Position numbers and translations under genes: made by a program. Under the pieces are notes generated by a model. That model was given only the letters and a program-made list of their open reading frames with translations. It was not told the DNA's origin and made no database searches. A stretch of 64,000 nt of DNA from Uruburuella testudinis (GTDB lineage Bacteria > Pseudomonadota > Gammaproteobacteria > Burkholderiales > Neisseriaceae): assembly GCF_022870865.1 (NCBI RefSeq), contig NZ_CP091508.1:1674001-1738000 (forward strand), in the 5' to 3' direction. Shown here in pieces: positions 2,902 to 47,095 of the stretch. Every line of letters begins with the position of its first letter. Position 1 is the stretch's first letter.

Positions 2902-3064
2902 TAGGGTGTTCTGATGGTCGTTTATGAGCGGATTTGCGCTCCTGAAAATGCAGATACCAGGCAAAAATGCAGCAAGATTGGACATCTTACGAGGCATTTT
3001 TAATGTAGAAAATATGCTGTTAGCGCAAAAAATTTGATGATATATAACACGTCAGGATATCCTA
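2902..3064. mobile_element. Family A MITE, full-length copy
   Basis: A 163-bp unit bounded by TAGGGTGTTCTGA and TCAGGATATCCTA. Its interior shares the family core (CTGAAAATGCAGAT, CAGGCAAAAA, GCAGCAAGATT, CTTACGAGGC). There is no coding capacity. It lies between dedA and the acyltransferase. Confidence 0.8.
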
Positions 3065-9018: not shown

Positions 9019-9162
9019 TAGGGTGTCCTGGCAATTCAAAATTACTCAGATTTTTTGCGCTAAAAGCACATCTGCTGCGTTAAAAAGCCTCGCAAGATGC
9101 CTAATCTTGCTGCGTTTTTAGGAGTAAAAAGCACCCGCCAATCGAGTGGTCAGAACATCCTA
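9019..9162. mobile_element. Family A MITE, 144-bp copy
   Basis: Bounded by TAGGGTGTCCTGG and TCAGAACATCCTA, with the core GCACATCTGCTGCGTTAAAA, CTCGCAAGATG and ATCTTGCTGCG inside. It is non-coding and lies in the efp-fadD gap. The remaining 134 bp up to fadD hold its promoter and nothing else that I recognise. Confidence 0.8.
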
Positions 9163-11867: not shown

Positions 11868-12019
11868 CCGATTCACAAAAGTAAGCTGGCAAGACAGCGA
11901 GTAGAAGACAGTACAAATAATATGAAACCGATTGGCTTGGTGCTTCCGTGCCTTAGCGAGACCTTTTCTCTTCGAACTTAGGCGAGCCATCACCATTAGT
12001 TCATTTTGGTAAACAGGCA
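11868..12019. repeat. Family B element, about 152 bp
   Basis: Begins CCGATTCACAAAAGTAAGCT and ends GGTAAACAGGCA. It shares GGCTTGGTGCTTC.GTGCCTTAGCGA with the copy at 31539-31687 and keeps the uninterrupted CCTTAGCG sequence, which is where another copy carries a MITE. Confidence 0.6.
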
Positions 12020-12147: not shown

Positions 12148-12313
12148 AATGCATTGCGGTACCCATTCGATTTACGGATGTATTTTGTTTCTGAAAACGC
12201 ATCAGCTGCGTTAAAAAGCCTCGCAAGATGTCCAACCTTACTACGTTTTTTCCTGGCACCTGCCTTTCCAGAAACAAAAAAACCTCCATAAATTGAATGG
12301 TCAGAATACCCTA
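12148..12313. mobile_element. Family A MITE with decayed left end
   Basis: The right end TCAGAATACCCTA (12301-12313) and the core (GCATCAGCTGCGTTAAAAAG, CTCGCAAGATG) are clear. The left end is not recognisable beyond CATTCGATTTACGG. It lies 37 bp from the ybaB stop. Confidence 0.65.
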
Positions 12314-12865: not shown

Positions 12866-12982
12866 TAGCTATCCTGACCATTCGATTTATGGTGATTTTT
12901 TGCCCCTAAAACTGCATTTGCTGCATTAAAAAGTCTGACAAGATGTCTATCTTGCTGCGTTTTTATCTGGCACCTGCATTGC
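12866..12982. mobile_element. Family A MITE, right end truncated
   Basis: The left end TAGCTATCCTGACCATTCG and core are present. The unit runs directly into the left end of the next copy at 12983, which replaces its own right end. This is evidence of nested or tandem insertion. Confidence 0.65.
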
Positions 12983-13188
12983 TAGGATGTCCTGATGTGT
13001 CATATATCATCATCTTTTTTGCGCTAAAAGCACATCTGCTGCGTTAAAAAGCCTTGCAAGATGCCCAATCTTGCTGCGTTTTTTGCCTGGCATCTGCACT
13101 TTTATCGCAAAAAATCTGAATAATTCGGAATGATCAGGACACCCTAGGAACAAAAATCTCCTCATAAACAACACATCAGGACACCCTA
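12983..13188. mobile_element. Composite family A MITE ending on the dnaX stop
   Basis: The left end TAGGATGTCCTGA is at 12983-12995. Two successive right ends TCAGGACACCCTA follow, at 13134-13146 and 13176-13188, preceded by different right-arm subtypes (ATCGCAAAAAATCTGAAT versus GGAACAAAAATCTCCTCAT). The final CTA is the complement of the dnaX stop TAG. Confidence 0.75.
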
Positions 13189-26758: not shown

Positions 26759-26886
26759 TAGGGTGTCCGGACAATTCGATTTATGGGTGTATTTTGCCCC
26801 TGAAAACGCATCTGCTGCGTTTTTGCCCGGCATCTGTACTTTTATCACAAAAAATCTGAATCATTCTGAATAATCAGAACACCCCA
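26759..26886. mobile_element. Family A MITE, 128-bp copy
   Basis: Bounded by TAGGGTGTCCGGA and TCAGAACACCCCA. The central half of the core is deleted (the GCATCTGCTGCGTTTTTGCCC junction). It ends 5 bp from the metW stop. Confidence 0.75.
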
Positions 26887-31538: not shown

Positions 31539-31687
31539 CCCCATTCATAAAAGTCAGCTAAACAGGCGGCGGGTTGACAGTGCACACATATGGAGCTGGT
31601 TAACTTGGTGCTTCAGCGCCTTAGCGAAACCGGCCTTCTTTGAACGCAGGCAAGCCAATAAAGTTAGGTTATTTTTGTGAATGGGTA
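31539..31687. repeat. Family B element, 149 bp, uninterrupted
   Basis: CCCCATTCATAAAAGTCAGC and TTATTTTTGTGAATGGGTA bound it. In reverse complement it matches the copy at 33487-33760 almost base for base, but here the CCTTAGCG sequence (TA at 31622-31623) is intact. It therefore serves as an empty-site reference for the MITE insertion. Confidence 0.75.
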
Positions 31688-33291: not shown

Positions 33292-33360
33292 TAGGGCGTC
33301 CTGATGTGTCGATTTATGGGTGTATTTTGCCCCTGTAAACCGACACATCAGGATACCCTA
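33292..33360. mobile_element. Minimal family A MITE (69 bp)
   Basis: TAGGGCGTCCTGATGTGTCG and CGACACATCAGGATACCCTA are nearly perfect inverted ends around a 29-bp rest of the core. A fragment of another left arm (CTGACTACTTGATTTACGG, 33260-33290) lies directly before it. Confidence 0.75.
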
Positions 33361-33440
33361 TTCCGCAAAATACCGGATCTTACTGCATTTTGTATTTTCT
33401 CATGGTTATGAAATGCTCAACAGACATCGGAAACACCCTA

Positions 33441-33486: not shown

Positions 33487-33760
33487 TACCCATTCACAAA
33501 AACAGCCTAACTTTATTGGCTTGCCTGCGTTCGAAGAAGGCCGGTTTCGCTAGGGTGTCCGGACAATTTGTTTATGAGGGGATTTTTGTTCCTGAAAATG
33601 CAGATGCCAGGCAAAAAACGCAGCAAGATTGAACATCTTGCGAGGCTTTTTAACGCAGCAGATGCGTTTTCAGGGGCAAAAATACACCCGTAAATCGAAT
33701 TGTCCGGACAGCCTAAGGCGCTGAAGCACCAAGTCAACCAGCTCCATATGCGTGTACCGC
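33487..33760. repeat. Family B element interrupted by a MITE
   Basis: TACCCATTCACAAAAACAGC starts it. Sequence matching the 31539-31687 copy resumes after the MITE with AGGCGCTGAAGCACCAAG and is lost near 33760, close to the LysR stop. The interruption is exactly at the TA of TTTCGCTAAGGCG. Confidence 0.75.
33551..33715. mobile_element. Family A MITE, full length, inside a family B repeat
   Basis: 165 bp bounded by TAGGGTGTCCGGA and TCCGGACAGCCTA, with the complete core. Comparison with two empty family B copies shows that a single TA became TA at both ends, i.e. a TA target duplication. Confidence 0.85.
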
Positions 33761-35422: not shown

Positions 35423-35586
35423 TAGGGTGTCCTGATTTGTCATATATCATCATCTTTTTTGCGCTAAAAGCACATCTGCTGCGTTAAAAAGCCTCGCAAG
35501 ATGTCCAATCTTGCTGCGTTTTTTGCCTGGCATCTGCATTTTCAGGAACAAAAATCCCCTCATAAACGACACATCAGGACACCTTG
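35423..35586. mobile_element. Family A MITE, full length
   Basis: TAGGGTGTCCTGA at the left and TCAGGACACCTTG at the right, 164 bp. Its left arm (TTTGTCATATATCATCATC) is the subtype also seen at 12983. It separates the NAD-binding gene from the carrier gene. Confidence 0.78.
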
Positions 35587-46468: not shown

Positions 46469-46626
46469 TTGGGTGTCCTGACGTCGTTTATGAGGTTTTT
46501 GGCGCCTGAAAATGCAGATACCGGGTAAAAAACGCAGCAAGGTTCAATATCTTGCGAGGCTTTTTAACGCAGCAGATGCGTTTTCAGGGGCAAAATACCC
46601 TTAAATCGAATGGTCAGGATAGCCTA
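46469..46626. mobile_element. Family A MITE in the putA upstream region
   Basis: TTGGGTGTCCTGA and TCAGGATAGCCTA bound 158 bp. It shares the GGCGCCTGAAAATGC variant with the inverted copy at 46936-47095. Confidence 0.8.
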
Positions 46627-46935: not shown

Positions 46936-47095
46936 TAGAGTTGTCCTGACCATTCGATTTAAGGGTATTTTGCCCCTGAAAACGCATCTGCTGCGTTAAA
47001 AAAACCTTGCAAGATATTGAACCTTGCTGCGTTTTTTACCCGGCATCTGCATTTTCAGGCGCCAAAAACCTCATAAACGACGTCAGGACACCCTA
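46936..47095. mobile_element. Family A MITE ending on the reductase stop codon
   Basis: TAGAGTTGTCCTGA at the left and TCAGGACACCCTA (47083-47095) at the right. It is the near-exact reverse complement of the 46469-46626 copy. Its terminal CTA is the complement of the TAG stop of the neighbouring minus-strand gene. Confidence 0.82.

Follow-up and report, generated by a model that had tools for sequence, protein, structure and literature searches.

An abundant TA-targeting MITE family in the genome of Uruburuella testudinis and its putative partners among IS5-family elements

Background

Rickettsia palindromic elements are repeats that may occur in frame within protein genes, and IS1301 of Neisseria meningitidis is an IS5-family element with TA duplication. 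MITEs of the IS630 class combine TA duplication with a short palindrome. Also close are the Correia repeat enclosed elements (CREE) of Neisseria, MITEs of about 150 bp that form a hairpin; a 2009 account gives TA as their target and calls their mobilising mechanism undetermined (PMC2649163).

Family A, analyzed here, resembles each of these in part. It shares its approximate size, hairpin and TA target with CREE but lacks the TATAGTGGATTAA ends and the Correia core, none of 18 matches of a Correia profile falling on a family A copy, and in this respect the original prediction, which had set it apart from Correia elements, is borne out. With IS630 MITEs it has in common the TA duplication and the short palindrome, whereas its ends are unlike those of the IS630 elements mapped in this genome. 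Judged by description, it is like the Rickettsia elements in lying in frame in a protein gene (one clear case) and unlike them in being a MITE of the DDE type that targets TA and whose IS relatives can be identified. Among IS5-family elements of the transpos_IS5_3 type (IS5_3) it finds the same terminal repeats starting with GGG, TA on both sides and a CTAG-like target, although it encodes no transposase and only the terminal 13-16 bp are common to both. In our literature searches, with most subscription papers out of reach, nothing resembling a Neisseria MITE with GGGTGTCC ends was found.

In this work we have analyzed family A starting from a window of 64,000 nucleotides, in which GCCGTCTGAA, the Neisseria uptake word, is also present; the window is part of a genome (G000) consisting of a single contig of 2,949,123 bases (2.95 Mb). 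Family A proves to be a genuine and numerous MITE family that targets TA, new but of a known MITE sort, and its movement in trans is very probably due to a DDE transposase of the IS5 family (transpos_IS5_3).

Results

Filled and empty sites

It had been predicted that a family A unit interrupts a family B repeat at 33487-33760 and that two other B copies in the window retain the empty site, and direct reading agrees on both points (Table 1). The letters from 33551 to 33715 read TA, an element of 161 bp (GGGTGTCCGGACAATT...AATTGTCCGGACAGCC) and a second TA, with GGTTTCGC directly before the first TA and AGGCGCTGAAGCACC directly after the second. When the two B flanks were joined with one TA they aligned without a gap to the uninterrupted copies (94% over 109 bp and 77% over 70 bp), i.e. 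one TA was used and two were left. The termini proposed for this copy (GGGTGTCCTGA) have to be corrected to GGGTGTCCGGA and GGCTGTCCGGA.

Table 1. Family A and family B features in the window
Feature	Position	Strand	Remark
Family A copy, full length, diverged	2904..3061	+	
Family A copy, both ends, internal deletion, 140 bp, TA both sides	9021..9160	-	
Family B repeat, uninterrupted; empty site TA 11954-11955	11868..12019	-	
Family A copy, one end missing	12163..12311	-	
Family A copy, partial	12870..12987	-	
Family A copy, full length, TA both sides	12985..13144	-	
Family A copy, both ends, internal deletion, 124 bp	26761..26884	-	
Family B repeat, uninterrupted; empty site TA 31622-31623	31539..31687	-	
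Family A copy, partial, just upstream of interrupted B repeat	33294..33391	-	
Family B (Correia-like) repeat, left part through one TA	33487..33552	+	interrupted copy
Family A MITE copy interrupting family B, 161 bp	33553..33713	+	TA at 33551-33552 and 33714-33715
Family B repeat, right part, starting at second TA	33714..33760	+	interrupted copy
Family A copy, full length	35425..35583	-	
Family A copy, full length, diverged	46471..46623	+	
Family A copy, nearly full length	46941..47093	-	

Eleven joined flanks were checked in detail, and the empty site was clean only for the window copy (ungapped TA in 8 of 10 site-spanning alignments within the examined DNA of the same genome) and for locus L021 (single TA in 6 of 8 alignments). 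The flanks of L124 (1 of 7) and L041 (1 of 11) mostly disagree with a single-TA site, and those of L017, L018, L050, L069 (two), L112 and L114 gave no clean one. A site in an oxidoreductase gene (see below) was rejected as an orthologous empty site, a variable spacer being present there in relatives.

Copies, ends and target of family A

The word TAGGGTGTCC occurs 323 times in the genome (167 + 156) versus 4 times (3 + 1) for the reversed control, and the abundance of family A is therefore not due to chance. A profile built from 43 seed copies gave 132 non-redundant matches, 96 of them full length, in 295,310 bases (~295 kb) of this genome, most of which were chosen around TAGGGTGTCC sites, so that TA counts are partly affected by selection. 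The family has the features of a MITE: it is short (53 of the 75 clean copies measure 160 bp), multicopy, bounded by terminal inverted repeats and devoid of a transposase gene, and its folding gives an almost complete hairpin (z -10.9). A target duplication of fixed length (TA) is seen in the filled and empty pair and in 19 of the 22 full copies found by BLAST alone and not selected for TA. TA is likewise present at the unselected end of 58 of 67 copies chosen by their other end; in the window, three of the seven full-length copies are strictly TA/TA and the rest are diverged or offset by a base.

The target of the 75 clean copies is mainly CTAG (49) or CTAA (17), and that of the 19 TA/TA copies from BLAST is CTAG in 13, CTAA in five and TTAG in one; CTAG makes up 0.7% of all TAs in the window, some of these lying at the elements themselves. 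C precedes TA in 70 of the 75, where a 3-bp CTA duplication would be indistinguishable because the element ends in C, and the five copies with T or A at this position fit a TA duplication only. Among the clean copies, which had in part been selected by this word, 117 of 150 ends read GGGTGTCC, and so do 35 of 44 among the BLAST-only copies (0 of 44 GGGCTTCC); at position 9 of the left end 41 clean copies carry T, 32 carry G and two carry C. Five pairs of clean full copies stand in tandem and share one TA, which would follow if the CCC-TA-GGG junction in turn made a good target. Copies 98% identical to that of the window suggest that the amplification is recent.

Family B and the insertions of A into B

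Seven Correia elements, one each from seven of eight loci (the eighth giving no second end), were combined into a profile, which had 18 matches in the examined DNA of this genome (best E 4.9e-16), all at places also called family B, and none in one mononucleotide-shuffled set. The ends of family B are TACCCATTCACAAAA and not the classical 26-bp Correia repeat ends: four published Correia ends, with up to six substitutions, had no match in the examined DNA of this genome, and one exact 28-base Correia end form is absent from the whole genome. Family B is, to judge from these matches, a diverged Correia element with a Correia core and other ends, which the original prediction had not recognised.

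Family A lies inside family B at seven loci, with the junction base changed or adjacent bases lost or added at some of them; they come from DNA selected for A. The site and the orientation are the same in 7/7, and the A copies of L021 and L113 are reciprocally nearest, as would be expected from one old insertion that was afterwards multiplied as a composite by the (Correia-type) mobiliser of B. We regard this history as possible but rather doubtful, since the A copy of the window is nearest (98.1%) to copies outside B, its best composite relative ranking only 27th, the A copies form clearly different subtypes (82-96% identity), and an orientation bias is seen more widely (CTAA vs TTAG 17 to 4, p 0.007, some of the 17 being composites). 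With the window copy nearest to non-B copies and some composites nearest to each other, repeated insertion, composite spread and gene conversion may all contribute.

IS630 elements of the genome

TA duplication is typical of IS630, and on this ground family A had been attributed to an IS630/Tc1-mariner transposase acting from outside the window. The genome indeed carries nine DDE_3 (IS630) matches, three of them with an open frame of 359-362 aa, and none of the nine lies in the window. The element ends, definable for six of the nine, fall into two groups (TATAGTC/TATAATC... or TATAGATTCGG...) and share no terminal repeat with family A. TAGGGT[GA]TCC bounds none of the nine loci, its only occurrence in the scan being a MITE that abuts one of them. 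The TA duplication thus stands and the link to IS630 does not: the search at the nine loci returned no IS with the ends of family A, an IS5-family element has them instead (see below), and mobilisation of family A by an IS630/Tc1-mariner transposase is very improbable.

At L006 (genome near 933,342) the TA that flanks a family A MITE is directly adjoined by an IS630-family copy with TATAGATTCGG ends. The IS630 elements L001-L003 begin with TATAGTC/TATAATC, recalling in these letters alone TATAGT, the start of the classical Correia ends. The IS5-like group obtained in a PF01609 search (L010-L012) was rejected as a partner, its ends being AACGTGAGTTCGGG and not GGGTGTCC.

IS5_3 elements with ends like those of family A

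An element of 122 bp (L073:1982-2103) ends exactly in GGGTGTCC and GGACACCC. Its coding content resembled an IS5-type transposase tail and pointed to a broken, TA-flanked IS of 870 bp in the same genome (L013:1144-2013), to the 3' end of which it is 90.6% identical over 106 bp; by this alignment the short element is evidently an internal-deletion derivative of the broken IS. The ends of the latter are GGTTGTCC and GCGTGTCC, i.e. GGTTGTCCTAGCAATT and GCGTGTCCTGACAATT, and differ from GGGTGTCC by two bases and by one base. NF033580 (transpos_IS5_3, NCBIfam) has five matches in this genome, and among the matches listed two are above the cut-off, both with in-frame stops, with no intact gene.

An intact IS, 83% identical to the broken copy, is present in a relative, the MAG Neisseria sp. 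S5R_Sa_39 (G035; L078:1329-2199). It comprises 871 bp with perfect 26-bp inverted repeats and TA on both sides, encodes a product of 251 aa assigned to the IS5 family (NF033580, E 6.8e-75) and adjoins a family A MITE, one TA being common to both. A genus search with one open piece found relatives in 7 of 46 genomes, and the aligned distant homologues (51% protein identity) from Rheinheimera (three), Alishewanella (two) and Shewanella (one) are TA-flanked with GGGC ends in 6/6.

The terminal repeats common to family A and IS5_3 are exact in G035 and for the 122-bp derivative and near-matching for the broken IS, outside which ~13-16 bases the interiors are unrelated; the broken IS, the IS of G035 and the six distant homologues also have the TA flanks of family A, read from filled copies. 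An IS5-family element having both the TA flanks and the matching ends, a duplicated TA does not by itself identify IS630, and the attribution to IS630 is replaced, on good but indirect evidence, by an IS5-family partner. Two further candidates were rejected: an IS5 N-terminal fragment (L075), bounded by no TAGGGTGTCC-like end, and the long TAGGGTGTCC...GGACACCC spans (711, 1299 and 1524 bp), in which MITE ends enclose an ordinary gene or other DNA and no IS.

End letters across Neisseria genomes

In G035, 78 of the 100 listed TAGGGYDTCC sites (104 in all) read GGGCTTCC, the IS included, and the remainder read GGGTTTCC (11), GGGCATCC (10) and GGGCGTCC (1), with no GGGTGTCC. IS and MITE alike end in GGGCTTCC there, so their ends changed together between the two genomes, and nothing argues more strongly for recognition of the MITE by the IS5 transposase than this paired change (GGGTGTCC here, GGGCTTCC in G035). 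Twenty G035 elements, picked by patterns with TA at both ends and hence TA/TA in 20/20 by construction, have the target CTAG (12), CTAA (4), TTAG (3) or GTAC (1). In G016, which has IS5 relatives, the end pattern showed no excess over the control (13 vs 13), which speaks against the proposed partner.

The core of family A also occurs in other Neisseria with other ends, often TAGGG[AC]GTGT (L237-L256 in G007, G011, G012, G013 and G029). By genome, the core thus carries GGGTGTCC here, GGGCTTCC in S5R_Sa_39 and GGG[AC]GTGT in G011, G012 and G029. That a single core lineage was kept throughout Neisseria, with ends re-set again and again to follow whichever IS5 transposase was resident, is conceivable but on balance unlikely. 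The IS5_3 elements of G011 and G029 end in GGGTCTGTCGACATTC, mostly beside CTAG, and G011 is the weak point of such tracking, its resident ends having no clear match to the GGG[AC]GTGT... ends of the MITEs that share the core.

G035 also contains, at five sites (L154, L183, L186, L187 and L188), an element of 35 bp flanked by TAs and made up of hardly more than two inverted ends, of the type GGGCTTCCTGACA-9 bp-TGTCAGGAAGCCC; the spacing of sites implies a sixth (C99:15029-15067). These may rank with the smallest mobile DNA units or else be remnants left by deletion.

Coding frames and genes at family A copies

Among the 53 copies of exactly 160 bp one forward frame is fully open in 40 and one reverse frame in 23; shuffled copies are open in ~3% per frame, the real copies not being independent of one another. 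A gene of FAD-oxidoreductase type, presumably mnmC, contains a family A MITE in frame at L057:5447-5606 (genome 1,192,369-1,192,528) and is open for 400 codons before the MITE and at least 110 after it. Element and TA together measure 162 bp, a multiple of three, and a DAO match (E 1.2e-38) ends just before the MITE. At L021:303-1601 two family A ends stand 1299 bp apart around an open frame of 320 codons, a possible composite unit; we assume the frame to be homocysteine methyltransferase-like, of an ordinary metabolic type.

Discussion

The original prediction of mobilisation in trans is retained in its main part, as family A is a MITE that needs a transposase in trans, and changed in the partner, which is very probably of the IS5 type and not IS630. 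We propose that the terminal inverted repeat GGGTGTCC(T/G)GACAATT would serve an IS5_3 transposase as its recognition signal at either end of family A, that this enzyme would cut and join the strands, that the element would be joined into a TA, preferably within CTAG or CTAA, and that repair would leave TA on each side. Amplification would have taken place while an intact partner was present.

We give hardly any credence to the view of family A as a static palindrome (REP-like or a terminator) that owes its spread to recombination or natural transformation, for which the long hairpin, the close similarity of the copies and the DNA uptake of Neisseria could be quoted, because the single-TA empty site contradicts it, as do the TA at ends not used for selection, the tandem copies with a shared TA and the IS5-derived deletion element with the ends of family A.

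Conclusions

In family A we have an abundant MITE of Neisseria for which a partner transposase family can be identified. The inference of IS630 from a duplicated TA is corrected, as the IS5-family elements described here are TA-flanked too. That IS and MITE ends changed as a pair between two species offers a ready two-allele test of mobilisation in trans and, should the ends of the MITE core indeed have tracked resident transposases across Neisseria, MITE ends would be a fossil record of the coevolution of transposases and the ends they recognise.
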